The notes under the pieces were generated by a model, which did no database searches, had not been told where the DNA came from, and saw nothing but the letters and a program-made list of their open reading frames with translations. Made by a program: the position numbers and the translations under genes. From the NCBI RefSeq assembly GCF_000521505.1, contig NZ_CP003915.1, forward strand, positions 3,596,001 through 3,660,000: a stretch of DNA of 64,000 bases, read 5' to 3'. This document shows, piece by piece, positions 38,344 through 56,961 of this stretch (position 1 is the first letter of the stretch; each line of letters begins with the position of its first letter). The stretch comes from Advenella mimigardefordensis DPN7 (GTDB lineage: Bacteria; Pseudomonadota; Gammaproteobacteria; Burkholderiales; Burkholderiaceae_B).

Positions 38344-38480
38344 TGTCGACGTTTTCGAATATCGATATTGAGCTTTCTTAAAAATCAGTCACTTACAAGA
38401 TAACGGTTTTCTTATATTGATATTCTATTTTTCTCTAAAATGATATTTTACAAGTTTTGGTCTTCATAAAATGAGATCGA
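38344..38480 (+). repeat. left transposon end with probable TnsB-binding sites
   Basis: The terminal GTTTTC with ATATCGATATT is followed by related repeats in the same direction: GTTTTC...ATATTGATATT (38406-38424), TTTTTC...AAAATGATATT (38428-38447) and a weaker one ending in TAAAATGAGAT (38467-38477). Arrays of such direct repeats at the ends bind TnsB in Tn7. A 16-nt stretch at 38409-38424 recurs with 15 matches at 54520-54535 inside the right end. Confidence 0.7.
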
Positions 38481-39103
38481 GCAAAGGACCAATATCCTAG
38501 ACCTTATCGACATATACAAACAACCACTCCACTTGTATACTTGAGCTCATATATAGAGGTGAATGCAGATAATCATAGGTGTTTTAATGACGAATTTTAA
38601 ACTTCAAACCTTACGCTTACCGTCACGAATAACACATCGCGTCCCGTCTAGTATCCTGCGGAAAGAAAGAGTTTATATCACTATTAGTAAAAGCACAGCG
38701 ATCGCATATGATCAGTATAGTCACCGCCCTCGTCCAGTCAATTTTATAAGATCTTCCCAAACAATCGCAATAGACAGTCGATTTTCAGAGGCTCTTATAT
38801 TCCTGTACATAAACTCTCCATTTTCTCTAGCGAAGCACTCACACGCAAGTGGAAGAAAACGGCTTCTAGAGTAAAGAAAGAAAAAGCGATAGCAATTACA
38901 GAAAGTAGAAAAATTAAATATATTTTAATGACTGTGGATTATTACCAAAAATTAACGCTTCTCATAACCTAAGCTAACAGAGGTAGTCGGCTTTTTAGCG
39001 ACACGTGATACCTCCCTTGTTAACTTTCGTGCTTATTTAGCGTTGCAAAAATTTATTTTTGGCTGTTATTTGGTCTTCAAAATGTTGATTTAATAACAGC
39101 AAC
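38481..39103. other. transposon-left intergenic region with inverted repeats
   Basis: About 620 bp between the left end and the cold-shock gene. A plus-strand frame at 38563-38874 (103 codons, AGAGGTGA before it) has no recognisable features; I leave it uncalled. Two inverted repeats stand out: GAGGTA/TACCTC (38980-38985 and 39009-39014) with an inner GTCG/CGAC pair, and a perfect 9-bp GCTGTTATT/AATAACAGC (39062-39070, 39092-39100) right after the cold-shock stop, possibly its terminator. Confidence 0.4.
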
Positions 39104-39316
39104 CTAGGAAATTCGGTAAATATCTACCGCTTGCAAACCTTTCTCTGAACGCTGAACGCGAAATCCCACTTTGACTCCCTCTAATGCCCATTCTTCACCC
39201 CGCACGTCGCGAAAATGAAAAAATAAATCTTTTCCAGCTTGTCTTGTAATGAAACCATATCCTTTCAAGGGAAAATAGCATTTAATAGTCCCAACGGTTT
39301 CCTCAGATAATTTCAT
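39104..39316 (-). CDS. cold-shock-domain protein of the retron module
   Basis: A 70-residue, single cold-shock domain. RNP1 is KGYGFITR and RNP2 is DLFFHF, with GTIKCYFPLKG before them and a GFRVQRSEKGLQAVDI end; it should bind single-stranded nucleic acid. The gene overlaps the reverse-transcriptase gene by 14 bp, so the two are co-translated. Retron types with small cold-shock-domain partners are known (for example the Se72-like group); the role of the protein there, toxin-like effector or RNA/DNA chaperone, was not something I can decide from sequence. Confidence 0.85.
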   Translation of the reverse strand: MKLSEETVGTIKCYFPLKGYGFITRQAGKDLFFHFRDVRGEEWALEGVKVGFRVQRSEKGLQAVDIYRIS

Positions 39317-40472
39317 GATAGAACAACTCCTCTTTATTCAACGGTGGCTTACAAGTCCTTAATATTTCCGCTAACTTGTTGGCCAGACCACTTTGTGTCC
39401 GTCGTAGAATGTTTAATCGATAACCAACTTGGTGAAATTTCGCATAGTATGCGTATTTTTTTCTATCATTGACCGAGGACTTTTCCAAGAAGCTCACTAG
39501 CTTAATTGTGCGGTGAATTTCATTATCGTCATAGACAGGCAAAATCTCCCGCAAACGTGACCTATAGCACGCTGCTTCTTTATGTCCAAGATAGGTAAGC
39601 TTTGCAACTCGACCAGATAAGCTGTTATGCAATTCATGATAATCGATCGACGTTCTACTTAGCTTTGACAACTTTTCGCAATTATGTAATTCTGCGCGAA
39701 TTAACCGTCGCTCCTGTCGATGCAAGCGGGCCTGACCTCTATTCAGCCAAAGTCCTGTTACTTCCATCAACTTCTCTGGGTTTTTGCGAGAGGTTATCCG
39801 CGTTTTCTTGTTTTGCAGTTTAAAACCCTGCTCATTTAACATCTTACGGACCTTCCCAATAAGAGTTTGAATCTGGATTTCGTTTATCTGCTTTTTTGAA
39901 GAAATCGATATATCATCAAGAAGCCTGGTATACGTAAATTCTTTATTACGTATATGTTGGACTAAATGATATTCCGCTTCATGTAACGATAGATTTGCAA
40001 TATGAGAGCTTGTACAAGCGCCTTGTGGTACTCGTCCTCGTAAACAAACCAAATCGGTAAGTAAGGCCGCTACGTCCTCTGGAAATTTAAAAAAAAACTT
40101 GAAAATTTTCAAGGTTTTTTCATACGTAATCGATGGATAAAAACCGCGGATGTCTAATGCAATTAATGTTTCTGCAGAGGCATGGGCGTTCGCATTCTTT
40201 ACGTAGTCTCGCTCCTTAATTCCACCAAATAGGTAGTCAGGATATTTGATCTTGTCAAAAATATTCCTATTAATTCGCTTTTGAATTTTCTTTAAATGAA
40301 TGCTAGGAATATAAATACTTCGTGACGAACCGTCCTTTTTCGGAACCGAATGTGGATGGTAATGCCTGTCTATGTTTGCCGCAGTACTTTTAAGTACATG
40401 TACATCTATCCGTAGAGCGGACGATAGTGCTTGAAGTGATGCAATAGGTTTGGCTAGGTACAAAGGGCGCAT
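39303..40472 (-). CDS. retron-type reverse transcriptase
   Basis: A 389-residue RT. Motif A has D107 (LIALDIRGFYPSI), motif B is RVPQGACTSSHIANL (148-160), motif C is YTRLLDDISIS with D186 and D187. Two retron hallmarks are present: the NAxxH motif (N93-A-N-A-H97) and VTG at 238-240 (EVTGLWLNRGQARLHRQE in pieces). The catalytic box reads LLDD instead of the usual YADD/YVDD, an unusual first residue. There is no maturase or HNH domain, so it is not a group II intron RT. It is preceded by a 64-aa ORF (34-bp gap) and followed by the overlapping cold-shock gene. Inferred: makes msDNA from a nearby RNA. Confidence 0.88.
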   Translation of the reverse strand: MRPLYLAKPIASLQALSSALRIDVHVLKSTAANIDRHYHPHSVPKKDGSSRSIYIPSIHLKKIQKRINRNIFDKIKYPDYLFGGIKERDYVKNANAHASAETLIALDIRGFYPSITYEKTLKIFKFFFKFPEDVAALLTDLVCLRGRVPQGACTSSHIANLSLHEAEYHLVQHIRNKEFTYTRLLDDISISSKKQINEIQIQTLIGKVRKMLNEQGFKLQNKKTRITSRKNPEKLMEVTGLWLNRGQARLHRQERRLIRAELHNCEKLSKLSRTSIDYHELHNSLSGRVAKLTYLGHKEAACYRSRLREILPVYDDNEIHRTIKLVSFLEKSSVNDRKKYAYYAKFHQVGYRLNILRRTQSGLANKLAEILRTCKPPLNKEELFYHEII

Positions 40473-40506
40473 AGAAAAATAACAGATATAAAGTTGAATA
40501 CCTACT

Positions 40507-40701
40507 CTATGGAAAAAATTGGTCTTTTAGACCGTCCCATAAAGATTTTGAAATGTTGAGTACCCTCATCAGGGCAATAAACACTTCGAGCCTGCGAAAA
40601 ACGCTGTTAATCATGTTATTTGGCTCACGCTCGATAACATTAGATTTTCTAGTGACATTCCTGCCACGTTTCTTTGACTTGTTTTTTGGCTTTTTGGCCA
40701 T
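40507..40701 (-). CDS. 64-residue basic protein, retron module
   Basis: A perfect AGGAGG lies 5-6 nt before ATG 40701, so I take this start and not the longer frame from 40752. The first 20 residues are very basic (MAKKPKNKSKKRGRNV), and the rest is a short helix-rich stretch with VFRRLEVFIALMRVLNISKSL. The basic part suggests nucleic-acid binding. It stands between a candidate structured RNA and the reverse transcriptase gene, the same strand. I do not know this protein; as a third component of the module it is interesting. Confidence 0.6.
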   Translation of the reverse strand: MAKKPKNKSKKRGRNVTRKSNVIEREPNNMINSVFRRLEVFIALMRVLNISKSLWDGLKDQFFP

Positions 40702-40713
40702 ACGCCCTCCTGA

Positions 40714-40990
40714 GTTTCGTACTGGACAATCCCAGCACTTGCTCAACATCAAGAGGACTAGTAGAAAACAAACAATCTTTCGCAGACTCAGGTATTAACT
40801 TCCAAGCTCAACAACCGACTCTAATATCAGAGATCGCCCCGCCATGCTGTACTCCCTTGTTGCTGCGGGGAGTTAGGCACGACACGCCGGTTAAGTCCTA
40901 AAAAGGACGTTTTCCTTAAAAATAAAAGAAAAACCCTGAGTTTTCCACACTCGTCAAAGTCTTCGAAAACCAACAGCTCAGACGAAACGC
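40714..40990 (-). ncRNA. candidate retron msr-msd RNA
   Basis: Read leftward, this stretch lies upstream of the small ORF and the RT, where retron RNAs are found. GTTTCGT (40988-40982) and ACGAAAC (40720-40714) can pair and would bring the ends together like the a1/a2 repeats. Between them are several hairpins: GTCCT-TTTT-AGGAC, ACTCCC...GGGAGT (or alternatively CCCCGC...GCGGGG), CTCT-gatatt-AGAG and CTGG-gattgt-CCAG. CTGAGCTG soon after the start offers an AGC like the branching-G site. A TTGAAT/TTACTA promoter-like pair lies near 41030-41000. The end repeat is short, so this is a hypothesis. Confidence 0.4.
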
Positions 40991-41287
40991 CTGATAAATA
41001 CATAGTAACATAAAGATATTATTTGATTCAATATATCCTCAAAATGTATCATCCGCTTATATAGAAACCACAAGGGGGCAGCCTTGAATTTATAAAGAAA
41101 TCAAACAATTACAGAAAAATATTTTTCAAATAAAAATAATGCTTTTTTCTTTAAAACAACAATCCGCAAGTAACGCGAGCATCATTCAATATGTATAAAT
41201 GTCAAACAACTCAAAAGTTCGTCATTTCTGATCCGCCTCAGCCTTGCACAGTACAACTTCTTAACTATTGACTAGACAGAGAGCCAA
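40991..41287. other. AT-rich spacer between retron and helicase modules
   Basis: About 300 bp with no gene seen. It contains the putative retron promoter near 41000-41030 and the region after the helicase stop. No clear terminator. Confidence 0.3.
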
Positions 41288-44200
41288 TCACAGCCAGATC
41301 CGCCATCGTCGTTTTTTTATATACAACGCGGTACTACCAAGTAATTTAAGACCTTCCTCATTAACCTGACTTAGGCAAAGCCCGGGCTGAACAATAACAA
41401 CGTTGAACCTGATAGGTGTTGTTCTAGAGCGCTCTTTTATAGCAGCCAGATCCTTTATATCGCCTTTAAGAAAGCGTGAGTGGCCACATGATCGCCACAA
41501 TTCCTCTCGTCGTTTTATATGGTGATACAAATAGGTGAGATTAAGGTGTTTCCACCGGATGCAACGCTGCGCTTGCCCGCAAACTTCGTACAAGTCCTTT
41601 AGTCTGGCCCCAGGCTGATCTAAACCGGAGTACTTGCAATGGATTAAGGTCAGTAAAATACAATCATCAAGAATTTTCAATCCGACCAAATCAGCTGATT
41701 CACCCTTTCCATCATCGTTAATAACAACGTCGTAATCTTCTTGTATTTCATTGAACCAGCGCCATTGGATAGACGTTCGATCACGCTCATATCCCATGGA
41801 TTCCTTGCGAATATCCGTCCCTTGCCAATCGAAAGCAACAATCTCGCCTTTATCGTAAAGACCAATATCCTGGCTAACATGAACAATATGAGCGTTGTAA
41901 GAAAATGCCCCATCAGAGTAATGAATCATTATCGGGTCAATTTCCATGTGCTCTGAGAGCAGTATGGGTTCAGATTCACCACGTTGTATGAAGACTTCAG
42001 GGCCAGATATCAGTTGATAGCCATAACCTTTAGGTGTGGTGTCTCCTAAAATACACAATTTGTACTCGGACGTAACTTCGTCGGTAGAAAATACGAGTCT
42101 TACACTACCATCGTCAAACTTACCATCCGTCCTAACCTCCACGATATATAAATGAGCTGATACAGGACCAAAGTGAAAGGTTACTTTATCCTCGAAAGCG
42201 GTAAGCAAGTATTCGCCCCATTGCGCTGATATTGGATATTCCTTGTAAGGCTCAAGTAATGGTATAGGGCGCAAAAAGTTACGGGTCAAATTATTCGGAT
42301 CTGGTTCAGAGCTGAAAATCTTATCCCAAGCTCTCTTTACCCAGTTGCACCAATCAGCGATGCTGCCGCCTTTTTGTGGCGACCAGACTTTACCTTTACG
42401 CTGTGAGCACCCCCAGATAACACGATTCCCCAACTCATACCCTAGTGCAGCGATATTACTTAAGCTAGATTGGGACGCTTCAATCAAGGAAAGTCCGTCA
42501 GTCACATTTGAACCAAAGTATTGAGTAAAGCTGATAGCCCCGATCTGGGCTGCTCCTAAATTTCTTACTAGAGGATATTCAATGCCATTAAAAACGTTGA
42601 ACACCTTTTCGCCACTGACAAGTTCACAATTATCGTTGCACAAAGCAGCGACCAAGCTCTCAACTCGAAAGACTTTATAGTCATTTGAAAACACAAACAA
42701 AGCAGACCTATCAGGGTCCCAGTGTGCAATTAATATTTTATAGTTCGTATCTTTGAGATCTTTATAGCTACCCCAACGGACAGATGTTGCCTGAACAGCC
42801 AGCACTACCAGCAAATTTTCATCATCCGCAATTGCATGCCAGGATTCTTCGAATTTGGGTAGCTCCTCTTTGTACTTTTCCGGCTCCCAGTGGTTGCATG
42901 AGGTTTTGAATAACATTGCTGAACAGCTAGGTTCAAGGTTCCAAAGTGAGATTTGATCATGTAAATCGCCTTTTCCCTTTAAGGCGTCAACCACCTCCTG
43001 CAACCTGACCTCTCTGGCAATTCTTCCTTCCGAAAGTCGCCTGAGAACGCTGTCCCAATCTGCTCCGATTGAATAGAGATGTTGCAGCTCTCCCTCTACA
43101 TCAGGATCTGCAATATTCATTACCACACTGGCCTGTCCGAGATTTTGAGCTCGATTAACGCGTGTAAATCGCCCAATGAATTGTAGCGTTACCGCCAGGC
43201 TCTTGTGATGATCATGCAAGGCTGCTATTTTCAAGTTAGGTAGATCATAGCCTTCACCCAACATATCTACACAAATTACGATTCTAGATTGTCTTGTCAA
43301 TAGTTTATCAAGACGACTTTTCACCTCCGATTTAGAATATCCAGAATGCACCACGACTGGATTAAAGTCTGGCACAAGGCTCTGATAAATAACCGTAATT
43401 TCTTCTGCCCGATGCTTGTTACTAGTTCTAGCCATAAGCAAGTGATCCAGCCCATTGTTCAGATCTGCTCGCAATTGGTTTATCGCTTTATCGGCTATTG
43501 CGTAGTCCATACGATCGGAGTAATACTCCTCTATAGGTAATAGGTTCACGTTCGTAAAATAGCCCGCTCGCTGCGCTTCCCCCATTGTGTAGTTATAGAT
43601 AATCCTCCCGCCAAGGGACTTTTTATCATTTCTAAATGGTGTAGCCGTAAACTGCACGATACGTTTTTCTATGAAACGCTCTCGGATAGCGTTCCAGGAT
43701 GATGCCGATATATGGTGAGCCTCATCAACAAACAGGTGCGTGCACGCTCCACACAGCGCAATCAAAGCTTCTTCAGAACAGGAAGACAATACACTGGCCG
43801 TTGCAACCAAAACATTGGACACGCTGGCTAACTGCTCAGCCTGTTCAACAAACTGTATTCCCTTTTTAATAATGGCAACATTCGGCAGTGCAGTATTGGA
43901 CGGGATAACAGTTAGCTCCGGCAAATACCCCAGCTCAATAAATTTTTTTGATATTTGCAACCGAAGTGAGTCAGATGGGACTACGACCAATATTTTCGCG
44001 CATCTCTGATATACCATGGTGGCGAGCATGGTTTCCGTTTTACCAGTTCCAGTTGGCAGCACAACGGTTGCTGGTTCCACTTTCAAATCAGTAGCGAAAT
44101 GGCCAGCGATAGCGTGGAGAGCACCAAGTTGAGGCTTACGAAGTCCTGGAAAATTGCGAATTGAATCTTCCTCTTTAAATTGAAATTGATGACGCCAAAG

Positions 44201-44554
44201 TTCATGAATTTCATCAGGCTCCGTGCTAAAAACGTGTTCCGGAAACTGCTCCCAACTTAACTGAATATTTTCATGCCAGTTATCTATAGTGAAAGATACT
44301 TTGGCTTTAAGAGAAGCCACGCCATTCGGGCATTTTCCTCTGGCATGAGGATTTTTCAAATAGATACTAGCGAAAGGCGGCGGTAGTCCCGTCGCAAGCT
44401 CGAAATATCCTTGGGTTGCCGAGTTTCTGACTTGCGCTTCTAATGTAATGGTTCTGAAAAACAGCTTATGTACAAAATTTCCACCGATTTTTCGAGTTGC
44501 AGCGCTCTTTGCCGGTAAAGTAAGTTGAATTGTTAGTGGGTCAAACAAGTCCAT
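41288..44554 (-). CDS. SF2 DEAD/DEAH helicase with possible C-terminal nuclease domain
   Basis: A 1088-residue protein. The helicase core has Walker A LPTGTGKTE (K172), the Walker B box DEAH at 277-280, TAT at about 303, MLGEGYDLPNL and a motif VI FIGRFTRVNR near residue 455, the pattern of type III restriction subunits and defence helicases. Residues 1-110 are a beta-rich region I do not recognise. Near the C-terminus, DYDVVINDDGKGESADLVGLK and LTLIHCKYSG fit a PD-(D/E)xK fold in which the usual Glu before Cys-Lys is His. It is a likely nucleic-acid translocase/nuclease of a defence system. GGAGA precedes the ATG. No methyltransferase is adjacent, so it is not a complete restriction system. 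Confidence 0.78.
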   Translation of the reverse strand: MDLFDPLTIQLTLPAKSAATRKIGGNFVHKLFFRTITLEAQVRNSATQGYFELATGLPPPFASIYLKNPHARGKCPNGVASLKAKVSFTIDNWHENIQLSWEQFPEHVFSTEPDEIHELWRHQFQFKEEDSIRNFPGLRKPQLGALHAIAGHFATDLKVEPATVVLPTGTGKTETMLATMVYQRCAKILVVVPSDSLRLQISKKFIELGYLPELTVIPSNTALPNVAIIKKGIQFVEQAEQLASVSNVLVATASVLSSCSEEALIALCGACTHLFVDEAHHISASSWNAIRERFIEKRIVQFTATPFRNDKKSLGGRIIYNYTMGEAQRAGYFTNVNLLPIEEYYSDRMDYAIADKAINQLRADLNNGLDHLLMARTSNKHRAEEITVIYQSLVPDFNPVVVHSGYSKSEVKSRLDKLLTRQSRIVICVDMLGEGYDLPNLKIAALHDHHKSLAVTLQFIGRFTRVNRAQNLGQASVVMNIADPDVEGELQHLYSIGADWDSVLRRLSEGRIAREVRLQEVVDALKGKGDLHDQISLWNLEPSCSAMLFKTSCNHWEPEKYKEELPKFEESWHAIADDENLLVVLAVQATSVRWGSYKDLKDTNYKILIAHWDPDRSALFVFSNDYKVFRVESLVAALCNDNCELVSGEKVFNVFNGIEYPLVRNLGAAQIGAISFTQYFGSNVTDGLSLIEASQSSLSNIAALGYELGNRVIWGCSQRKGKVWSPQKGGSIADWCNWVKRAWDKIFSSEPDPNNLTRNFLRPIPLLEPYKEYPISAQWGEYLLTAFEDKVTFHFGPVSAHLYIVEVRTDGKFDDGSVRLVFSTDEVTSEYKLCILGDTTPKGYGYQLISGPEVFIQRGESEPILLSEHMEIDPIMIHYSDGAFSYNAHIVHVSQDIGLYDKGEIVAFDWQGTDIRKESMGYERDRTSIQWRWFNEIQEDYDVVINDDGKGESADLVGLKILDDCILLTLIHCKYSGLDQPGARLKDLYEVCGQAQRCIRWKHLNLTYLYHHIKRREELWRSCGHSRFLKGDIKDLAAIKERSRTTPIRFNVVIVQPGLCLSQVNEEGLKLLGSTALYIKKRRWRIWL

Positions 44555-44816
44555 TTGTAGTTCTCCTACCGGTCCTCGAAAACCCTTTTTGACTTAACGC
44601 TGAGAACATATTTTCACGCCAACTCTCGCTTATATCTGAGAATGTAGTTTCTACATGTTTTTCGAATTGCAATTTACCGAAATCATTGTGAATGAATTTC
44701 ATTCAGTATTCCCGATATTTCCGAAGTTGCCGCCTACATATGGTGGCCGGCTTTAACGAAGAGTGATTACATTCACTCATGCATGACTGTTTGTTAAAAC
44801 AAATAACACCTATTTT

Positions 44817-44912
44817 CTAGTCTAAGTAAAGCCTCAAAACCATCACCCCTAGATTGTCTTTCCCCAGCTTGATAGTAGACCCCTCAACCTTGAGCATCGG
44901 CTTCGATGACAT
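44817..44912 (-). CDS. 31-residue small ORF upstream of the helicase
   Basis: AAGGAGA lies 8 nt before the ATG. The peptide, starting MSSKPMLKVEGSTIKLG, has a short strand pattern and no recognisable motif. It lies between the 46-aa ORF and the helicase gene on the same strand, so it could be a small component of the same operon. Support is the ribosome site, position and strand only. Confidence 0.35.
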   Translation of the reverse strand: MSSKPMLKVEGSTIKLGKDNLGVMVLRLYLD

Positions 44913-44932
44913 AATGTCACTCTCCTTCTTAC

Positions 44933-45073
44933 CTATTTCCCCTTCTTCGCAGGGATAGACTTTCCTGGGATCTTGATCGTTTCAACAATTGACCCCTTCT
45001 TATCTTTTTCCGCTTCTTTGACTGGTTTAAATCGGCCATTTTCCGCATCTCTTCCAATTTTTCTAGTTGCCAT
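44933..45073 (-). CDS. 46-residue small basic protein
   Basis: AGGAG lies before ATG 45073. The peptide starts MATRKIGRDAENGRFKPVKE and ends IPGKSIPAKKGK; this pattern (a GRDA-x-x-G-x-F-x-PVKEA opening, ETIK and a basic end) recalls short hypothetical proteins that I have seen near antitoxin and defence genes. No function is known to me. It is the first gene of a possible 46-aa / 31-aa / helicase operon. Confidence 0.5.
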   Translation of the reverse strand: MATRKIGRDAENGRFKPVKEAEKDKKGSIVETIKIPGKSIPAKKGK

Positions 45074-45458
45074 CTGTGTCTCCTAAGACTGAACAATAAG
45101 CTATTACACTACCTGTAATGCACTTCACCAAAAGACGCCTGAAAGACAACAATAGGCACCATTGGTTTCCAAAAGTTACATTGTATTCTTATTTATTTAC
45201 CGAGTCGACAAACAACGGCCTAGGGGAACTACCTATTACTCTGTCCAATCAAACACATAACGAAAGCCAACCCATTTCTTTGGCCGTTCACCCGTATGTC
45301 AATTTTTACAGAAAAATCATAAAAAGCGCTCGGACGACAGTCGGGGGAGCCGTGGCATTTATATGCAGCACCAAACCAAACCAATTTAGTATCTTGGTAG
45401 ATATATTTACATATTCTTTTTCTTGACCCAGGGCTTTTTGAAAGCTATCAATAAACGA

Positions 45459-45749
45459 CTAATGACCGATGATGAATTGCTTATGACGAACAAATGCTTT
45501 CTTCAGAGCTGGTGAAGGCGCTGATGGATTCATTAACGCATGAGCAAAACATTCTTGTTGAGCCTTCGATAGACGCACAATTTCAGTATCCTCAATCTCC
45601 CGTCGCGCAGCGGCTTTCACGGCCCTAACAACAAATTCGGAAATCGTACTTCCTTGGAGCGCTGCTGCATACTCAACCGTATCGTACAGATCAGGGTCTA
45701 TCTTGAGCTTAAGACTAGCAGACTTAGATCTTGACATAATTGCACCCAT
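45459..45749 (-). CDS. DUF1778/TacA-like antitoxin, no toxin seen
   Basis: A 96-residue ribbon-helix-helix protein: SASLKLKIDPDLYDTVEYAAALQGSTISEFVVRAV in pieces is the DNA-binding part, followed by LSKAQQECFAHALMNPSAPSPALKKAF, the toxin-wrapping tail of TacA antitoxins. Normally a GNAT acetyltransferase toxin follows; none is present within several hundred bases. The start may be 45749 or 45737. It is the last of three leftward cargo genes behind tniQ. Confidence 0.75.
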   Translation of the reverse strand: MGAIMSRSKSASLKLKIDPDLYDTVEYAAALQGSTISEFVVRAVKAAARREIEDTEIVRLSKAQQECFAHALMNPSAPSPALKKAFVRHKQFIIGH

Positions 45750-45775: not shown

Positions 45776-46522
45776 CTACCTATCAAAGCTTAAATTCGGG
45801 TTACCTGGCGGCGAATATTGAAATTCAACGCTATTCTGTAAAATCGACTCTTTGTTAGTTTTATCTGCCAAATCAATAGCTAACTGCAGTATCCGAGCTA
45901 CTTGCTTCGGCCGTTCAGCGGTGAGTGTCGCATATACTCTAAAAATATAAAACCCGGCGACCAAGATCGACGCAGCAATAAGTAAAATCAAAGCTTTTGG
46001 CTCGGCTATTCCGACCAAGGTCACTGCGACCCCGAACAATACCGGAAGCAACCCCTTACTTTGGATAGCGCCAGAAAATACTTGAACTCTGTTTTCAAGC
46101 ACTAATATGTTACTTTCATACTGTACCAGTGAGAGCTTCAAGTATGCCGTCGGAAATTTAATTAGCTTATTAATATAGACGGCATCCTGAACCGTAGAAG
46201 TCGAATATATCTCCAAAAGGTTACTGTAAATTGGTTTGTTATATTTTTTAAAAGTTACAAAAAATAGTGCGGTTAGTGCCCAAGCCACAATACCAAGACC
46301 CATTAAGAACCATCGAAAATATTTTTCACCAATTAGTGCTGCCAAGAAGTCATGTTGCATATAGAGACTTACCGCAAGCACCAACCCCAACGCCAAACAC
46401 ATCCACCCTCGGTCAGATTTTTTCTGCTGGTCTTTATCTACCTGTACCAGGTATGACTCATTCGTCATTTCGGTCAAAATATCGGTGATTTCTTTCAATA
46501 TAGATCCGTCGAATTTTTGCAT
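45776..46522 (-). CDS. integral membrane protein of unknown function (cargo)
   Basis: A 248-residue protein with about four membrane helices in two pairs: MCLALGLVLAVSLYMQ and FLMGLGIVAWALTALFFVTF near residues 40-90, then VLFGVAVTLVGIAEP and LILLIAASILVAGFYIF near 155-200. The N-terminus (DGSILKEITDILTEMTNES) and the tail are soluble. I do not recognise the family. It lies 27 bp upstream of the antitoxin gene and could be an effector of a defence pair, but this is speculation. Confidence 0.55.
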   Translation of the reverse strand: MQKFDGSILKEITDILTEMTNESYLVQVDKDQQKKSDRGWMCLALGLVLAVSLYMQHDFLAALIGEKYFRWFLMGLGIVAWALTALFFVTFKKYNKPIYSNLLEIYSTSTVQDAVYINKLIKFPTAYLKLSLVQYESNILVLENRVQVFSGAIQSKGLLPVLFGVAVTLVGIAEPKALILLIAASILVAGFYIFRVYATLTAERPKQVARILQLAIDLADKTNKESILQNSVEFQYSPPGNPNLSFDR

Positions 46523-46712: not shown

Positions 46713-47384
46713 TCAAACGGCAATCGATTCCTTGGAACAGGATGGGTTGAAACCCCATTCTCTTTCTCCCAGCTCCAAAAATCGCTCGATTGCTGCATCT
46801 ATAGCTGGCTGATTTATTACTTCTTTATCTACAACAATATACAATCCAATACCATAGACATAGCTCCGGTCATGACTGTAGGATTCGTAAATAGGTGGTG
46901 GCTCATTATGAATAATGTCGGTTTCTAGTTTCCGACACATCTCATGATATGTAAGTCCGCCAAATTTCTCAAAGCGCCTCTCCTCTTTCTCAGCACGAGA
47001 ATAGCCAAGCACTTCTCCCGTAGGAGACCATTGAACTGGCACAAACTCAACGTTAAATACCTCTTCAAGCTCTTCGTCTGTCAGCATGTCAGTCGCACGA
47101 TTACGAGCTAAGTCATTGACTTCATCCCAAAAAGCCTTACGAGCAGTTATTATTATGGCGTTCCATATAGTGAGCTTGTCCTTACCTAAAAAGTAGAAAG
47201 AAAACGACTGATCGTAAATCTCCGGACGACCAGGCTCATTTAGCATAGCCCTACTAGTAAAGCCCCCGCCGTATTCATAAATATATTGATCAATCTGCTG
47301 TTGAAGGCGGGTTGCTTCAGCTTGCCTGTCTTCTAAAGGCAATTCGACAAACGGCCTAAATTTTGCATTTTTTATGCGATTCAT
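46713..47384 (-). CDS. hypothetical protein (transposon cargo)
   Basis: A 223-residue soluble protein without recognised motifs; it contains ITARKAFWDEVNDLARNRA, an acidic TDEELEEVFNVEF and a Tyr-rich EPPPIYESYSHDRSYVYG. It is the first gene behind tniQ2 on the same strand with a gap of about 75 bp, a place where Tn7-like elements carry variable cargo. Coding potential is good over the whole length. Function unknown. Confidence 0.55.
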   Translation of the reverse strand: MNRIKNAKFRPFVELPLEDRQAEATRLQQQIDQYIYEYGGGFTSRAMLNEPGRPEIYDQSFSFYFLGKDKLTIWNAIIITARKAFWDEVNDLARNRATDMLTDEELEEVFNVEFVPVQWSPTGEVLGYSRAEKEERRFEKFGGLTYHEMCRKLETDIIHNEPPPIYESYSHDRSYVYGIGLYIVVDKEVINQPAIDAAIERFLELGEREWGFNPSCSKESIAV

Positions 47385-47460: not shown

Positions 47461-48351
47461 CTAAGCCTTACCTACGATCCTGTGCCAGTGCCCATTCAAT
47501 CCAAAAGAATACAGTTCAAAAAGCATATTAGATTTAGGGGGTAATTTTCTATTCATGGGACGCTCATCCAAGTATCTCGTGTTAGGAAACCTACCTCGCC
47601 TCATTTCTTTTAAAGCTGATTCGTAATTCCTTCGCATTTCAGAAACAGTGAAATCTCCCAATTCGCACAACGATAGAATTAAGAATATTGGAAGGCATTT
47701 AAGCTGAAAATTTTCGTCAAATCCCCGTACTTTAAACCGGCCATTTAAACAAGCGCTAGTAATTACATCCTGTAGCTCTAAATAATTGGCTAAATTTTTG
47801 CTTTGGATAGGTTTACTCCCTGCGTCACTGAGTGCCGTACCACAACGGTAGCAGAAACCCATAATTGACCCATTTTCTCCACTAACATACCGCTTGTTCA
47901 AACGCTTGTTAATATTTATTCTTTGACCGCAACTGTGACAACAATCGAGCAGTTTAATTCTATGTCTAGGGCAGACCTCATAATGTCTGAATCGCCATGT
48001 CCACCGCCAATACGGTACGAAATCGGTTTCCAGGCAGCGCGGGCAGTATTTATAATACCCTTTGTCACGATCTGAGCTTAGAAACAGCCAAAGCAAATTT
48101 TGCTCCCGCAAATGAGAAAATCTTGTCGTAAAAAAGAAGATGTCATTATCTGTAAGCTGCGTACCTTGTATCAACTGTACCAGATCGGAGTATTCAACAT
48201 CTAGATCGTAGTCTTTTTTTTGTTGTATAGAGAGGCCTCTCATCAATATCCCCGGGTCAACGGAATGCATCTGACACAGTCGAGCTATATATGAGGCTAA
48301 CGACTCATCCAAAATAAGTTCTGGTACAAACAACAAATTTCGACTAATCAT
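47461..48351 (-). CDS. tniQ: TniQ-family target-selection protein 2
   Basis: A 296-residue TniQ/TnsD-type protein. SLASYIARLCQMHSVDP is the family's N-terminal motif, YCPRCLETDFVPYWRWTWRF the first zinc-ribbon part, EVCPRHRIKLLDCCHSCGQ the second and FCYRCG another. I chose ATG 48351, which overlaps the tniQ1 stop (ATGATTAG), so the genes are coupled; the longer frame from 48393 adds an unrelated start. Elements with two TniQ proteins usually use one for a fixed site and the other for mobile or other targets. The partner roles here are unknown. Confidence 0.85.
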   Translation of the reverse strand: MISRNLLFVPELILDESLASYIARLCQMHSVDPGILMRGLSIQQKKDYDLDVEYSDLVQLIQGTQLTDNDIFFFTTRFSHLREQNLLWLFLSSDRDKGYYKYCPRCLETDFVPYWRWTWRFRHYEVCPRHRIKLLDCCHSCGQRININKRLNKRYVSGENGSIMGFCYRCGTALSDAGSKPIQSKNLANYLELQDVITSACLNGRFKVRGFDENFQLKCLPIFLILSLCELGDFTVSEMRRNYESALKEMRRGRFPNTRYLDERPMNRKLPPKSNMLFELYSFGLNGHWHRIVGKA

Positions 48352-49360
48352 AAAACATATCCATCTGAAAGCTATTGGTAATGGATTTGTCAATTTTCTC
48401 CAGCCTAGCTACCCTCTGGAATAGCAGAGATATCTTTTCTTGCTCTGCTTGACTACTATGAATGCAAATATCCGCTACCTCTTTCAAATGTAAAGAAGCA
48501 CTAGTGAATCGGTTAGCGCGGTCCTCATACAAATCACTGATTCGTAAAAATGCGCGCTGAACCACTTGCACTGCCTCTTTACTACTTAAAACTCTTGTCA
48601 ACTTACCGGGTCTGAAATTACTGACGTGCTCTGGCCCACTACTGATACCAAGTGCGCGTATCAACCTAACCAAGACATCGAGCGATAAATTGGCAAGAAA
48701 TGCGTACGGAATCCCCCTTTCCGGCGACATGCGAATGTCTGACAGTAGGCAGAATAAAGTTGAACTAAGCCACAGTTCTGCTTCACTGGGCGCTTCCAAC
48801 TCTGCCCCCTCCAAACGCATTCCGCAGTTGCACTCAAGCAAACTTGGTCGACGCCAAGTTAACTTTCTGAAACATTTTGGACATTGATCCAGTAATCTCG
48901 TGTAATGCACAGGGCATGCCGTTACCAATGAAAGCTCCCAGAGTGCTTGCGCAAATCCAGTATTAAGTAAACATAGCGGACATACTTGAGTCCAGCTTCT
49001 CCGTACGTGATACGGTCGCGTTAGTATGCAGTCTTTAAATACCGTGATAATATGCCCCTTCTCTCGGTAGGACTTCGGTATCGCTTTCCCAACGTCGATG
49101 GGATTACCGCCGAATAGATAGGCGATTTTGCCAGCCACTTCATTAGGCAGATATCGATGCCCAAGTGAAGCCATGCTCCGAGCAAGTTGGCTAAACTGTA
49201 TTCCATTGGCCTCAGTCATTCGCAATGCATAACCATTTCCAGACTCATCGGGTTTCAGGTCATCTTGAATTGGCAGCGGTCGCCCTAGGATTGGATCAAG
49301 AAAAAGTTGCAAAGGGGCTCTCCTGAGCTGATTCGGGTCCAAATACCAGCTCATAAGCAC
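48344..49360 (-). CDS. tniQ: TniQ-family target-selection protein 1
   Basis: A 338-residue TniQ protein: YALRMTEANGIQFSQLARSM at the start, then the zinc-binding set QVCPLCLLNTGFAQALWEL, TACPVHYTRLLDQCPKC and LLECNCG. The N-terminal DDL/GNGYALR region is the typical TniQ opening. It overlaps the tnsC stop by 65 bp at the 5' side. TniQ proteins bring the target DNA to TnsC; with TnsA/B this gives targeted insertion. Confidence 0.87.
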   Translation of the reverse strand: MLMSWYLDPNQLRRAPLQLFLDPILGRPLPIQDDLKPDESGNGYALRMTEANGIQFSQLARSMASLGHRYLPNEVAGKIAYLFGGNPIDVGKAIPKSYREKGHIITVFKDCILTRPYHVRRSWTQVCPLCLLNTGFAQALWELSLVTACPVHYTRLLDQCPKCFRKLTWRRPSLLECNCGMRLEGAELEAPSEAELWLSSTLFCLLSDIRMSPERGIPYAFLANLSLDVLVRLIRALGISSGPEHVSNFRPGKLTRVLSSKEAVQVVQRAFLRISDLYEDRANRFTSASLHLKEVADICIHSSQAEQEKISLLFQRVARLEKIDKSITNSFQMDMFYD

Positions 49361-50168
49361 GTCGAATTAACGAAATATCTACTTTTTCCCTTTTTTCCGT
49401 TACCCCAAGAATCACAATCTGAATGAGCAGAGATTTGAGCAAACGCGGCGTACCATTAGTCGCAGTAAAAAACTCTCTAGAGTACCGTTCATATATATCA
49501 GAAAGATCTATTTTCTCGCAGCTATCCGCTAATCCTTTCAGAAATACGAGCCAGTGCTTGTCATAACGGAATAGTCCTAGCCTTATTGAAGTTGGAACTC
49601 GAGTGGTAAGTTGAGGATCTATCCCTGTAAGTTGATCAAGCATTTCAGTCCCGATAAGGACAACGGGCACCGCAGTCTCATTCATGAGTCGTTTTACCCA
49701 GTCAACCACGATCGTCGAGACTTTTCCTTGCTGCAGAAAAATGTGTTGAAATTCATCGAGAACAATTAGTTTGACACCAAGGTCCTTAATTGAGCGGAGC
49801 AAAATTATATTAATTTCATTGTTTGTAGACGAGCGTGTAGTTACGAGTCCAGCATCGTACTGAAAATTAGATAGCAATTCATTCTGAATCTGCGCGACCG
49901 TTGGGCTTTCTTTTAGGGATGCATGTATTACGGCGAGCTTGTCCTTTAGGATCGGTAGCCCAATAATATTTTTACGCAGACATTGAAATAGGAAGGTCTT
50001 TCCGGATCCAGCGGGCGCAATAATTCGTACACCCGCAGGTGCACCAGTTGAATTACCGATTTGCACGACGTTCGAAATTAACGTTAATGCGTCATTAAAC
50101 TTAGGATGGCGTACAACCACTTCCCGCATAGCCTTACCAGCCACTAACGCGTCGTAACTATATTCCAT
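49296..50168 (-). CDS. tnsC: TnsC/TniB-type AAA+ ATPase
   Basis: A 290-residue ATPase: Walker A APAGSGKTF (G54-T58), Walker B LIVLDEFQHIF (D138-E139), then VVLIGTEMLDQL, a sensor-like region. At 290 residues it is much shorter than the 555-residue TnsC of Tn7 and resembles TniB of Tn5053-type elements. It is the ATP-dependent link between the target protein and the transposase. It starts 2 bp after the stop of the tnsB C-terminal frame. Confidence 0.88.
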   Translation of the reverse strand: MEYSYDALVAGKAMREVVVRHPKFNDALTLISNVVQIGNSTGAPAGVRIIAPAGSGKTFLFQCLRKNIIGLPILKDKLAVIHASLKESPTVAQIQNELLSNFQYDAGLVTTRSSTNNEINIILLRSIKDLGVKLIVLDEFQHIFLQQGKVSTIVVDWVKRLMNETAVPVVLIGTEMLDQLTGIDPQLTTRVPTSIRLGLFRYDKHWLVFLKGLADSCEKIDLSDIYERYSREFFTATNGTPRLLKSLLIQIVILGVTEKREKVDISLIRRAYELVFGPESAQESPFATFS

Positions 50169-50170
50169 AA

Positions 50171-50632
50171 TCAGCCCTCCATCTCGTCTAGACGTATGAT
50201 TGTTATGTCAGGAAGATCATCGAGAGTTAGCGTCGGCATACCTTCTGGGATTTCGTTCACAAGTGAGTCGATTTGCTCCGAGCTTAGTTTTTTAGCTGGT
50301 GATTTGAAGTTGCTTTGTTCGTTAATGATTGCCATTTTTTTCGCCTCCCGGAGGCTGAGTTTTCCGGCCTTGATCTTCTTTTGCCATCCCTTCTTCAGTG
50401 CGTAAATCGCATCTTGATAGTGCTCTAACTTCCTGGATCTTCTAAGATCTAATGCCTTACTCATTCGAATTATGCGATGTGCAGTCAAAGATAGGCCGTC
50501 CGCGTAAGATTTCTGCAATACCGGAACCCACAGCCATGTTTTTTCTTTGGGCTCCTGAACCCAAATTCCACCTAAATTCTCAGGGTCTAATCGCGCATCC
50601 ACGTCGAATTTTGGACCATATTTTTTTGCCAT
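50171..50632 (-). pseudogene. tnsB: tnsB C-terminal part in shifted frame
   Basis: A 153-codon frame with the Mu-type C-terminal domain: FDVDARLDPENLGGIWVQEP and WVPVLQKSYADGLSLTAHR in pieces, then a helical tail with LKKGWQKKIKAG. Its natural reading begins in the A7 run, one frame back relative to the main tnsB frame, right where that frame loses similarity. A separate ATG (50632) with no ribosome site exists, so it could also be translated alone. Together the two parts give about 658 residues, close to full-length TnsB. The C-terminal tail normally contacts TnsC, so its loss would matter. Confidence 0.8.
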
Positions 50633-52146
50633 TTGGCCAATCCACGACTGCGATAATCTAAATAGAATTTCTCAATCCCTGCTTGGCTAACTTTTACTCT
50701 AGTAGGAATCGCCGCAAAAATATCCAACGCTCTCAAATCATCATTGAAAACAGGTGCTGGAACTTTCTTAAGACCCTCCTTCATCCTATCAAATGCGCAG
50801 TCTTGAGTGCGATCTGATATTTTGAATGGATAAATGTCTACAGCCCATTTGATTAACGCAGCATGCAAATCGTCAAAAGCAATAGAAGCCGTCTTCTTGG
50901 GATCAATGGGCTTATGAACTCCCTGAATCAATTCGGACCTTCCATAACGCGGAAGTGCATTGACGACAGACAACATAGACCGTTCCACTCCGGGTTTAAA
51001 CCACGGTTTTCTAACTGGAGATCGTTCAACGTCAAATCCCATTTGTAATGCAATAGCATTTGCGTCTGCTGCATGAAATTCACTAGCATTATCAGTCAGC
51101 ATTGTTTGCCATAAACCTGGAGTAATCCACTCGTTCTTCAGCCCTAGCTCAGCCACAATTTTATTTTTTGGTGTTAACGCAAATTTAATCGCTCTAACTA
51201 CCCTAGCAACAGTCGTGCCTTCAAAAGAAATAACAAGACTAAGAATATATCCAGTGCACGAATCGATGATGATGGTAATGATTGGTCTTCCGAGCACAAT
51301 TCCAATCCTGGAATCAATTACATAGATGGACAGTTCAGTATGATCAATTTCCACCACTTGCAACGGATATTCTGCGTTTATTCCACCAATGGCGTGGCGC
51401 CATCTTGCGGCGGCAAAGGCGGCTCCCTCGCGAATCTTTTCTCTCTCGTACGGTGAGATTTGCCTAATTATCTTTTTTACCGTCGATATGCTCACATATG
51501 CGTCTTCTCCTAACCGAGTTCGCATCTCCGAAGAGAGGAAATTGTATGTGTCTTCTATACTCTTCCCGCTTCGTTGTAAATAGTACCGTGTTATAAACTC
51601 ATGGATTAAGTCTAACTTTTCCTGTCCTATTCTTTCCCCTATTTTCCGACTCATTCTTGGCTTAGGCAAGAGGCTACGATTGTCGCATCCGCTCTGATTA
51701 TATATACGTAGCCAATCCGCGACCGTCGTCGGAGCGGGAGGGTTTTTATCATTGGTATTGGCAGCTATAGTGGCAATCACTCTCGTAATCTGTCTTATGC
51801 AACCTTGCGTTACGCCCTCTTTTTTACAACGAAGAACATAATTAATTTTGCGTTCATACTTTGCTTTTGCTTTTGCAGAGAATCGAGCGGTGTCAATGAT
51901 TACATGTATGCTGGATTGCACGTTAGGCAATTTCACCGATATGGCATTACAAACGTGACTTCCTCCTTGGACAATAAGTTCTTTACGCTCAATCTTATCC
52001 AGTAACTCGTCTAGTGACATTTTCTCAATCAATCCAGTTTCCACATTTTCAAGCTGTATCAAATTCTCAGGGAGCATTCGCTGGAACTTCAACAGCTGCT
52101 TACCTCGTTGCAACACCAATCCATCTTTCAATTGAAACTTCGCCAT
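50587..52146 (-). CDS. tnsB: TnsB transposase, DDE part, truncated by a frameshift at A7
   Basis: A 519-residue frame of the retroviral-integrase-type transposase: N-terminal DNA-binding part, then the catalytic DDE residues D268 (VVEIDHTEL), D352 (MLTDNASEF) and E388 (FKPGVERSM). After about residue 505 the frame reads into unrelated sequence and stops at 50587, whereas the C-terminal domain continues in the -1 frame from GGCAAAAAAATATGG. ATG 52146 with GGACAG before it is chosen over a TTG at 52167. It overlaps tnsA by 46 bp. Either a programmed -1 frameshift, transcriptional slippage at the A7 run, a mutation, or a sequencing error explains the split. Confidence 0.88.
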   Translation of the reverse strand: MAKFQLKDGLVLQRGKQLLKFQRMLPENLIQLENVETGLIEKMSLDELLDKIERKELIVQGGSHVCNAISVKLPNVQSSIHVIIDTARFSAKAKAKYERKINYVLRCKKEGVTQGCIRQITRVIATIAANTNDKNPPAPTTVADWLRIYNQSGCDNRSLLPKPRMSRKIGERIGQEKLDLIHEFITRYYLQRSGKSIEDTYNFLSSEMRTRLGEDAYVSISTVKKIIRQISPYEREKIREGAAFAAARWRHAIGGINAEYPLQVVEIDHTELSIYVIDSRIGIVLGRPIITIIIDSCTGYILSLVISFEGTTVARVVRAIKFALTPKNKIVAELGLKNEWITPGLWQTMLTDNASEFHAADANAIALQMGFDVERSPVRKPWFKPGVERSMLSVVNALPRYGRSELIQGVHKPIDPKKTASIAFDDLHAALIKWAVDIYPFKISDRTQDCAFDRMKEGLKKVPAPVFNDDLRALDIFAAIPTRVKVSQAGIEKFYLDYRSRGLAKWQKNMVQNSTWMRD

Positions 52147-52747
52147 TTTCCTGTCCTTTATCGTCAATAATTAGTCCGTTTTCATTACATGCATCAATTT
52201 GTAGGTAACGATGACCAATTAGGTAATAGATGAATTCAATTGGAATACTCAATCGCCCGACAATTTCATTGACAGAAGCCGGAAGACGTAAGGAATTGAT
52301 TTTTTCCATTACCTCTGTTCTTGCAGATGACGAGTAGTAAGATTGAGAATATCGATGGACTAAACTGGCAAATTGTTTGCGCTTCTCGATGTGTTGATCT
52401 GTAATGAGAAAAAATTTCATGCCGTTTTGATCGAATTGGTGTTTAGCAGCTGAAATTTTGTCTTCGTATTTATCAACAAACACTGATGATTTGACTTCGA
52501 CTATATACCTTTGTGCATTCTTGTCTAAAAGCAAATAATCAGGCGTATACCTTCCGAATCCAGGTATATCAATTTGTATTGGCTGGGCGACAATTCGCCG
52601 GATGGAGGGATGTAGTAAAGCGATACGAACAAAATCGCGCTCAAGGCGGCTTTCGTATTCAATTGGCTCAGATTGAACGTGGGTACAAACCACGTATCCC
52701 ACTCGCCGATGCGGCGAGCGGTGGACTAGTTTTCTAACTTGTTTCAT
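52100..52747 (-). CDS. tnsA: TnsA endonuclease
   Basis: A 215-residue TnsA: the restriction-like active site has E36 (ESRLERDF), D70 (GRYTPDYLL) and E84-V-K86 (YIVEVKSS). The C-terminal winged helix follows (SVNEIVGRLSIPIEFIYYLI). TnsA cuts the 5' strands, so together with TnsB it allows cut-and-paste transposition with no cointegrate. It overlaps tnsB by 46 bp and begins the tnsA-tnsB-tnsC-tniQ-tniQ operon. Confidence 0.9.
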   Translation of the reverse strand: MKQVRKLVHRSPHRRVGYVVCTHVQSEPIEYESRLERDFVRIALLHPSIRRIVAQPIQIDIPGFGRYTPDYLLLDKNAQRYIVEVKSSVFVDKYEDKISAAKHQFDQNGMKFFLITDQHIEKRKQFASLVHRYSQSYYSSSARTEVMEKINSLRLPASVNEIVGRLSIPIEFIYYLIGHRYLQIDACNENGLIIDDKGQENGEVSIERWIGVATR

Positions 52748-52893
52748 AATCTTCTCTTTATATAGACGTGACTAACCAGCTTGACACCATCAATAAAAAG
52801 AGAGATACTTTACCTGTGAGAGCAGTACCTCCTCACTATGAGGATGACAAGACCGGCGCTTCTTAGAAGTTGTCCGGTTTTTTCATTTACATT

Positions 52894-53151
52894 TCATTTC
52901 TCCTTTATCCCAAGGTCGCCTTTCGCAATTTGGCTCTCTAGCCATGCAGATACTGAAGCGGTCCGAACATACCTTCCCTTCCGCCCATCAAGCTCGATTT
53001 CCCGAAAAGGCAATAAGCCCTTACTTCGTGCCTTTCTATATGCGGATGCGGATGTATAGCTGGCTACTTTCCATACCTTTGTTGAATGAATAAAGTAGCC
53101 ATATTGTTCCAATAAATTTTCATAGATACTTTCGCGTTTGCCATCCATCAT
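52894..53151 (-). CDS. small HTH protein upstream of tnsA
   Basis: An 85-residue DNA-binding protein, chosen start ATG 53151 (AGGGG upstream; a longer GTG start is unsupported). WKVASYTSASAYRKARSKGLLPFRE is a MerR/AlpA-like winged helix, the RKARSKGLLPF stretch resembling the wing. It lies 150 bp upstream of tnsA on the same strand, so it is probably the regulator of the tns genes or an excisionase-like factor. Known for such elements: small HTH regulators near the ends of Tn7-like and CAST elements. Confidence 0.6.
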   Translation of the reverse strand: MMDGKRESIYENLLEQYGYFIHSTKVWKVASYTSASAYRKARSKGLLPFREIELDGRKGRYVRTASVSAWLESQIAKGDLGIKEK

Positions 53152-53384
53152 CTGGCCCCTACATTCGTCTCTCGCCACATTTCACACTTTAAACAGTAGC
53201 GTATCCAATTATTAGAACTTGTGACACCGTCCTTTTTTTTGCAAAATTTAAGTTTCAAATGAAAATTTATTCAATATAATCATAATCTTAAAATTTTCTA
53301 AACTAGAAAAATCTTTGGTTATGAAAAAAAAACGATACAAATCATATTCTCAACCAAACAGCTCGGGTTTGGTGCCATGAATTA

Positions 53385-54350
53385 ATGATCAGGACCAATT
53401 GCGCGAATTCCTCTCAATTGGAAAAAGTATTAGATAATATTTTTGATTCACCATCAGAACGTTCATCGAATAAATACTATAAATACTGGATGGCATTGCG
53501 ATCCCCTCGCCCAAGCGTAATCGCCCGATGTGAAAAGAAAGTTCGCGATAGCGCCTGGTTAATGAATAATCTTTTATGGACAGCCATCAATCTAGAATCG
53601 CTAGACGACAATCTAGCTCGTCTGCTGCTGTCGAAGCTAGATACCCGTTATTTAAACAATGTAGGCAAGGATTGGTATCGGTCGGTTAACTTGTATCGTG
53701 ATTCCTTCACGGACAAAATCCTGAGATTAACCACTTTAGATTCACTCGCTATTTTAGTCATACTGATCAAATTGGCACACCAACAAGGCGACCAACTACA
53801 CGAAGTACGGATCGCGAAACAGTTATATCGTGGATTATTAATGATCGGTGCTCAATTGACAGAGCAAAACTTCATTTTGGAATCTTTCTTTTCCCTATTT
53901 GATAAATTCGTATTTAATCGAATAAATTGGGGAGATAGAAAACCGATAATGGATTTTCAGTTTTACCGTTTTGGTGTTCGATATTTAGATAGCCTATACC
54001 CAATAAAAGAGAATCTAGGACTTACCTTAGTTGATAAGACAGATAAGCAATACATTCTGGATCGATGTGAGTGTTTACTACCAGGCTTACTGGGTCAACG
54101 CAACCAGTCAAATATAGAGTCTCTTAATTTTATGTTAATGCCTAAGGATATCGAATATCGAAATTTATCTGACTATGATAATCTCGACGACTATATCGGT
54201 GTTTGGGTAACGGATCTAACAGCAATGAATTATTCTTTTGAGGATAACTCAATGTCATATTATAGAAATCGATACCTACATACAAAATTAATTGATTTTA
54301 TCTTTAGTGAGCCGGGAATATTTGTAAACAATTCGGCAAATAAAAACTGA
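53385..54350 (+). CDS. hypothetical protein at the tnsA-side end of the transposon
   Basis: A 321-residue, helical protein of unknown family, transcribed towards the right end and divergent from the HTH gene. It has no transmembrane helix or signal peptide. Stretches such as YKYWMALRSPRPSVIARCEKKV and SLAILVILIKLAHQQGDQ recall nothing I know. An ATGAATTAATG just before the start forms a start-stop pair that may tune translation. AT-rich, and coding over its full length. It lies within the transposon, so it may be cargo or an element-specific factor. Confidence 0.55.
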   Translation: MIRTNCANSSQLEKVLDNIFDSPSERSSNKYYKYWMALRSPRPSVIARCEKKVRDSAWLMNNLLWTAINLESLDDNLARLLLSKLDTRYLNNVGKDWYRSVNLYRDSFTDKILRLTTLDSLAILVILIKLAHQQGDQLHEVRIAKQLYRGLLMIGAQLTEQNFILESFFSLFDKFVFNRINWGDRKPIMDFQFYRFGVRYLDSLYPIKENLGLTLVDKTDKQYILDRCECLLPGLLGQRNQSNIESLNFMLMPKDIEYRNLSDYDNLDDYIGVWVTDLTAMNYSFEDNSMSYYRNRYLHTKLIDFIFSEPGIFVNNSANKN

Positions 54351-54750
54351 AAACGCTCAACAATAGATACTATTTTTTCGAAACATGTTGCTTCCCGACC
54401 ATGATGTAGAATAGCGTCCATTACCCACAAAAGAGCTTCGAATAATCTATGTTGTATCAGCTCAAACGTGGTCTGGTTCTTCTATACTCAGATTTTTCAG
54501 CAAAAAAACAGAGTTAGGCTTCTTATCTTGATATTTTCCGAATTACGAGCTCCATAGCGTCAGATTTTCCGGAACGAGTCATTATGTGCACCCGTGTTTT
54601 TCTCCTCTATTAAGAGACAAAAAATCGAATTTTTCGATGAAATTTGCCATTTAATCTTAAGCTATTGATTTAAATAAAAAAATAAATCATCACAAAATAA
54701 TCGCTCTGAATATAAAGTAGCCAGACTCTGATTCTAAGAAAACTTCGACA
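54351..54750 (-). repeat. right transposon end and AT-rich region
   Basis: No gene seen in 400 bp. The terminal repeat is read inward from 54750 as TGTCGAAGTTTTC. Inside, TTCTTATCTTGATATT (54520-54535) matches the left-end repeat at 38409-38424 in 15 of 16 positions, and ATCGAA-TTT-TTCGAT (54624-54638) is a small inverted repeat. Presumed TnsB-binding region. Confidence 0.7.

Positions 54751-55281: not shown

Positions 55282-56961
<1,680 letters not shown>

Follow-up and report, generated by a model that had tools for sequence, protein, structure and literature searches.

A Tn7-like transposon of Advenella mimigardefordensis with a probable attachment site upstream of groESL

The stretch of DNA analysed here, called the window, is a 64,000-nucleotide (nt) piece of the genome of Advenella mimigardefordensis DPN7, of the family Alcaligenaceae in the NCBI taxonomy. 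Positions 38344-54750 of it (all coordinates are those of the window) are occupied by a Tn7-like element of 16,407 base pairs (bp). Judged from its sequence, this is with high probability a transposon of the cut-and-paste kind that uses the DNA immediately upstream of the groESL heat-shock operon as its attachment site. Our best reading is that it is a cousin of the type I-F3 CRISPR-associated transposons (CASTs) that is free of CRISPR (clustered regularly interspaced short palindromic repeats) and homes to the groESL promoter region via short TniQ proteins. In what follows, G-numbers denote genomes, L-numbers fetched stretches and P-numbers homologous proteins; Advenella incenata DSM 23814, of the same genus as the window, is G003.

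Borders, orientation and the probable groESL site

The ends of the element and the operon beside it are made up of the following features:

38339..38343, no strand: left copy of the target duplication, GTAAA
38344..38356, plus strand: left terminal inverted repeat TGTCGACGTTTTC; homology to A. incenata begins at 38344
38383..38395, plus strand: IHF-like site AATCAGTCACTTA, 39 nt inside the left end (motif only)
54738..54750, minus strand: right terminal inverted repeat TGTCGAAGTTTTC
54751..54755, no strand: right copy of the target duplication, GTAAA
54765..54785, minus strand: likely remnant of an older right end of "type B", between the element and groES (similarity by eye)
54830..54883, plus strand: groESL promoter region with a CIRCE-type inverted repeat, the probable attachment locus (pattern match)
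54942..55229, plus strand: groES, 191 bp from the right end
55315..56961, plus strand: groEL

From their sequence we take the two genes to be groES and groEL, and the promoter is presumably of the heat-shock (sigma-32) type and its inverted repeat a CIRCE element. The termini of the transposon begin with TGT and end with ACA and are flanked by a 5-bp duplication, as in Tn7-like transposons, and TGTCGACGTTTTC is identical to the reverse complement of TGTCGAAGTTTTC at 12 of 13 positions. The terminal 13-mer pattern occurs five times in the genome and a reversed-pattern control once; the three extra copies were rejected as element ends, their surroundings showing by eye no end-like structure. Both borders are confirmed independently, because a separate insertion in A. 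incenata, 79-94% identical to the window element, has the same boundaries: on the left the homology sets in precisely at 38344 (L011:6858), and for the second of the right-end copies beside groES (L128) it ends precisely at 54750. The original prediction, in which inverted repeats and GTAAA flanks bound a 16,407-bp element, is thus exact to the base, and no relative with other boundaries came to light, the one close relative, A. incenata, sharing them. The predicted empty-site junction reads ATTGCTGT-GTAAA-TAGTAATAG; the left flank (38040-38343) was found in none of the nine other Advenella genomes searched. Just left of the element, at 37623-38260, lies what appears by eye to be a remnant of an IS3-type transposase, adjoining the 3' end of a fatty-acid-desaturase-like gene (also by eye).

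Relatives bearing tns genes were found via TnsB, and the position of groES was then looked up. In seven elements with related tns genes, from five genera, the right end lies 148-222 bp upstream of groES: 191 bp in the window, 150 bp in A. incenata, 157 bp in G046, 217 bp in Cupriavidus pinatubonensis, 160 bp in Trinickia dabaoshanensis, 148 bp in G031 and 222 bp in Paucibacter sp. TC2R-5. (G031 and G046 are labelled Achromobacter-like after the name carried by their TniQ1 homologues.) Exact 5-bp duplications flank five of the six elements with comparable flanks, namely GTAAA in the window, CCTAT in A. incenata, ACAAT in G046 (element length 40.4 kilobases, kb), CCCGG in C. pinatubonensis (33.8 kb) and CCGGG in Trinickia, where all flanks are given with groES on the right. 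The two ends of the A. incenata and Trinickia elements sit on separate contigs, and the match of the duplication is itself the link between them. Within the window's family a close TnsB (at least 35% identity, E at most 1e-97) is encoded in 4 of 268 genomes (G000, G003, G031 and G046), all four of which belong to these seven and have a right end at groES. Another Advenella genome, G008, has two right ends of type A at groES, the nearer one 171 bp away; no tns gene occurs in the 20 kb read at that locus.

According to PMC6360697 the R end is the tnsA side, and the tnsA-proximal side faces groES in all seven tns-bearing elements. By a strict motif, the IHF-like site stands at +39 in five of nine left ends (the window, A. 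incenata, G046 and two of G031); the sixth left end within the family (G016) has it by a relaxed motif, so that the strict count there is five of six, and none of the three left ends outside the family (Cupriavidus, Trinickia and Burkholderia) has the strict motif. Because the motif is absent from all 31 groES-proximal termini that were read, no reversed insertion is seen as far as this marker tells; it is also absent from all eight right ends. Tn7-like transposons have arrays of TnsB binding sites at either end. Type B right ends carry pairs of TnsB-like sites spaced 21 bp apart, and the window's own ends have no copies by the type B consensus and weak copies about 22 bp apart by eye. Directly outside the newest left end there is an older right end in G046 and in A. 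incenata. G031 shows right and left ends in alternation (R, L, R, L, R), like a queue. A. incenata also has a 698-bp tandem duplication (L128, 3658-5007), which contains two right ends and an open reading frame (ORF) of 85 amino acids in two copies. Its tns genes lie on another contig, which points to a rearrangement or to an assembly break at repeats.

We scanned the 268 genomes of the family for TCGACA as a terminus lying 15-45 nt upstream of the -35 box of groES. The groES promoter pattern is present in 231 of them, a few of the matches being at other loci, and the terminus at groES in 51, compared with about 2.9 genomes expected by chance (from the TCGACA rate in 18 loci; the genomes are related, so the figure is a guide only). 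The window and G046 were missed by the pattern because their ends lie further out; some real ends are therefore uncounted, and some of those counted may be due to chance. Thirty-one TCGACA loci were read, 30 from the family scan and one from a scan of the order. At least one TnsB-like site pointing inward was present in 22 of these and two sites, 21 bp apart, in 15, compared with 2.3 and 0.085 in shuffled copies, although this test is not blind because the consensus was derived from the same ends.

Transposition genes and known systems

Inward from the right end, the minus strand carries ORF94, TnsA, TnsB, TnsC, TniQ1 and TniQ2, followed by the cargo:

53385..54350, plus strand: ORF321, no family, near the right end; 87% in A. 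incenata, 44% in the gyrB-linked element L129
52894..53178, minus strand: ORF94, small and helix-turn-helix-like (sub-threshold HTH_17); 94% in A. incenata, 57% beside a gyrB-linked Tn7-like element
52100..52747, minus strand: TnsA endonuclease (PF08722, E 2.4e-8)
50587..52167, minus strand: 5' piece of tnsB with the catalytic core; a run of A close to its end breaks the frame
50171..50632, minus strand: 3' piece of tnsB (C-terminal part), in another frame
49296..50168, minus strand: TnsC, a TniB-type ATPase (PF05621); nearest solved structure VchTnsC, 7rzy, E 3.5e-12
48344..49360, minus strand: TniQ1, probably 322 amino acids as P0015 (PF06527)
47461..48393, minus strand: TniQ2, probably 296 amino acids as P0040 (PF06527)

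The gene set first proposed, with TnsA, TnsB, a short TniB-type TnsC and two TniQ proteins, was borne out by matches to PF08722, PF05621 and, twice, PF06527; TnsB itself matches rve only below threshold and was recognised via its full-length homologues P0002-P0010, whose matches are strong. TnsA is usual in Tn7-like transposons, though not universal. TnsE and CRISPR components, of which the original prediction had seen none, were likewise not found. The Pfam scan, which covered 15 element proteins but no small or antisense ORFs, gave no match to TnsE and none to a resolvase family; since ORF223 and ORF321 both lack a family, a divergent selector is possible. No cas family rose above the cut-off in the Pfam and PADLOC scans of the element proteins, and the element has no direct repeats of at least 20 nt within 120 bp (seed 12). 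Carriage on plasmids was considered and rejected: the whole element has no megablast match, and the 15 plasmid records matched by TniQ1 in tblastn are all below 60% identity.

In this assembly tnsB consists of two overlapping frames of 526 and 153 amino acids. Aligned separately, the two pieces span whole relatives such as P0002 (658 amino acids) and P0004 (659 amino acids). TnsB is unbroken in P0002 and P0004-P0009, with 653-666 amino acids in a single frame, and the A. incenata gene is an open frame of 666 codons. Homopolymer runs are a common place for sequencing errors and slippage. The break may be genuine, may come from the assembly or may be bypassed. The element had been called complete, which holds for its borders and its gene set and fails for function as sequenced, tnsB being split.

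According to a comparison by sequence with the PDB, the closest solved relatives are PseTnsAB/Tn6677 for TnsB, VchTnsC for TnsC and the type I-F3 TniQ for TniQ1. Tn7 inserts site-specifically and in one orientation, 3' of glmS. The window element resembles Tn7 (TnsABCD+E) in having TnsA, TnsB, TnsC and a selector of the TniQ family and in being site-specific with one orientation, but it shows no match to TnsE and no selector of TnsD size, and its target is 5' of an operon promoter, not 3' of glmS. Tn5053/Tn402 elements combine a TniB-type ATPase, TniQ and a 5-bp duplication with the resolvase TniR and res-site targeting; the window element shares the first three, whereas it has TnsA, no identified resolvase and a chromosomal target at groES. 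With the I-F3 CASTs (Tn6677/VchCAST and Tn7016/PseCAST) it has in common separate TnsA and TnsB, TGT...ACA ends, the 5-bp duplication and an IHF-type site at the left end, which is recognised by motif only in the window and reads AATCAGCAAACTTA in VchCAST (PMC10201428). Unlike these systems, it has no Cascade, repeats or target guide, possesses a second short TniQ and is targeted upstream of groESL, while the I-F3 targets named in PMC6360697 are the SRP-RNA, IMPDH and yciA loci. An I-F3 branch with two TniQ proteins employs one of them to direct insertion to parE (PMC11406308); the window element also has two TniQ, but that branch has CRISPR and none was found here.

Three Advenella genomes (L129 from G003, C2:1-20000; L130 from G007; L131 from G008) have a second, distant Tn7-like family (TnsB 24-27% identical) immediately 3' of a gyrB-like gene. 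The gyrB-linked element of L131 has two larger TniQ proteins of 479 and 600 amino acids, and that of L129 has the pair of ORF94 and ORF321 in common with the window element.

Most of the attachment sites described for Tn7-like elements adjoin a gene or a tRNA at its 3' end. As an attachment site for such elements, groES/groEL goes unnamed in the titles and abstract openings searched, although some papers contain both kinds of term, and supplementary tables may list it; the string "groE" is absent from the main text of three of the most pertinent papers (PMC10293859, PMC8649781 and PMC6360697). The common position and orientation of the related elements point to groESL as a homing site new to the literature searched.

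Target recognition and alternative explanations

In the mechanism that we propose, TnsB would bind paired sites about 21-22 bp apart at the element ends, an IHF-type bend would shape the left end, TnsA and TnsB would excise the element, and TnsC would relay the target signal. One or both of the short TniQ proteins would recognise promoter or 5' DNA of groESL, and the right end would be placed about 150-220 bp upstream of the start codon, leaving the operon intact. Later arrivals appear to insert between an earlier right end and groES in several genomes, by which arrays would form and scars accumulate, and the cargo, with its type V retron, large helicase and other genes, would benefit the host by phage defence. 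Mobility of the copy as assembled would require that the tnsB break stems from a sequencing error, that slippage bypasses it, or that TnsB is supplied in trans.

TniQ1 resembles the I-F3 TniQ, and TniQ2 resembles TnsD in its core only, with low confidence for the C-terminus. Of the 28 element pairs, 14 have TniQ2 aligned over more than 150 residues, and in each of these its identity is the lowest (with one tie after rounding); between the window and A. incenata it is 59% identical, compared with 79-89% for the others. These identities and likenesses do not decide whether TniQ1 or TniQ2 is the reader of groES. We tentatively suggest, with a confidence that falls just short of even, that a CRISPR-free sister lineage of I-F3 homes to groESL by a short TniQ pair alone, one member being Cascade-adaptor-like and the other nearest to TnsD, with no TnsD-sized, TnsE or TnsF selector, and stacks defence islands across Burkholderiales. 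In a bolder sub-case the signal read at groESL would not be a DNA word but a promoter structure or a protein of the host, and the loose groES spacing would then be explained.

Several observations weigh against homing to groESL. The distance to groES is variable (148-222 bp), while Tn7-like elements keep a fixed distance to their target, according to PMC8649781; and neither TniQ has the large extension that is usual for direct target binding (PMC10293859). The flanks of the G031 element differ (CCCCT vs CCCGC), perhaps through recombination of its array, and extra end-like copies are present there. The elements of Burkholderia stagnalis and Hydrogenophaga are not linked to groES on one contig, and that of Caballeronia is undecided. 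TniQ1 of B. stagnalis is truncated, and this case was discarded as evidence for a natural loss of TniQ1 away from groES because no right end was found for the element. In the window the scar lies on the groES side of the newer element, opposite to the stacking order elsewhere. Nine of the 31 termini have no recognisable TnsB-like site, including two in the Advenella genomes G003 and G008, which are type A ends outside the coverage of the consensus. Scars seem to make up most of the groES termini: no TnsB match (E 0.001) exists in 40 of the 51 TCGACA genomes, and 12 stretches (one of 2.2 kb) from 11 TnsB-less genomes gave a single tns match in tblastn, to a piece of TnsA. Moreover, an order-wide sample produced 3 matching genomes in 399, two inside the family and one outside, so that any spread beyond the family is supported by single cases.

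The region upstream of groESL might instead be merely a permissive hotspot, in which targeting is loose (for example towards AT-rich or promoter DNA) and harmless insertions survive. The varying distance to groES would agree with this, as would the differences among the left flanks read in the various genomes and the occurrence of both type A and type B ends at groES. We nevertheless regard a hotspot as improbable, given the single orientation in all seven tns-bearing elements, the absence of left-type termini among the 31 and the stacking at one point in several genomes. Targeting could also be guided by RNA as in I-F3, with the guide or Cascade supplied in trans and TniQ1 acting as a Cascade adaptor, but this we consider very improbable indeed. 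There are no CRISPR-like repeats in the element, and the element has no guide-like match to the groES region, the best 28-mer having 20 matches (19-20 in controls) and the longest exact match being 13 (10-13 in controls). Csy3 was found in none of the eight host genomes, with a control search that was positive in 1 of 14 known genomes.

A further explanation concerns present activity and is compatible with homing to the region upstream of groESL: the copy may be a decayed, immobile fossil that persists through its defence cargo. The two frames of tnsB and the many groES loci that retain only end scars speak for decay, whereas the clean ends, the identical duplication and the open frames of the remaining tns genes speak against it, as does the position of the break in a homopolymer run, where errors and slippage are common. 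On balance we see a fossil as a serious possibility, though not quite a probable one.

Cargo and meaning of the probable groESL site

The cargo of the transposon that we place at a groESL attachment site comprises the following genes:

39104..39316, minus strand: retron cold-shock-domain protein CSD_V (PF00313, E 3.7e-13; PADLOC CSD_V, E 7.1e-26)
39303..40472, minus strand: retron reverse transcriptase, type V (PADLOC RT_V, E 6.9e-109; RVT_1)
40507..40752, minus strand: small basic ORF of 81 amino acids upstream of the reverse transcriptase, without family; 90% identical in A. incenata
41288..44554, minus strand: superfamily 2 helicase of 1088 amino acids with a ResIII ATPase (PF04851, E 3.6e-19; partial PbeA match, E 2.6e-11)
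45459..45749, minus strand: TacA-like antitoxin (PF08681, E 3.6e-22)
45776..46522, minus strand: membrane-like protein (by eye), no family above cut-off; 86% in A. incenata
46713..47384, minus strand: ORF223, a protein of 223 amino acids with no Pfam or PADLOC family and no NCBIfam family above cut-off

The defence-like character ascribed to this cargo from the start is supported, and it includes a type V retron, which the earlier reading had overlooked together with the frame break in tnsB and with groES as the probable target. The RT_V and CSD_V genes, which overlap by a few bases, together are a type V retron; unlike in the known type, the msr-msd RNA was not located, Rfam giving no match in 37000-56000 up to E 1 and no fold or covariation search having been made. 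The ResIII-type helicase is a possible candidate defence gene. The TacA-like antitoxin has no obvious adjoining GNAT toxin ORF of at least 80 amino acids. A small ORF at the left end encodes 103 amino acids in the window (38563-38874) and 136 in A. incenata (L011, 7078-7488). In G046 a protein of 1336 amino acids with a sub-threshold STAND-NTPase match is encoded between tnsA and the right end (L134, 10056-14066), and in Trinickia two adjacent genes beside the tns genes (L051, 254-3915) are by eye UvrD helicase-like and OLD-type-ATPase-like, that is, Gabija-like.

Attachment sites reveal how Tn7-like elements find safe harbours. A site on the 5', promoter side of an essential operon, used by elements with two short TniQ proteins and no CRISPR, would be a natural protein-guided counterpart to I-F3, and with it the reading of DNA by a TniQ in the absence of Cascade could be tested directly. 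For the Burkholderiales, the DNA upstream of groES would be a place to look for defence islands.

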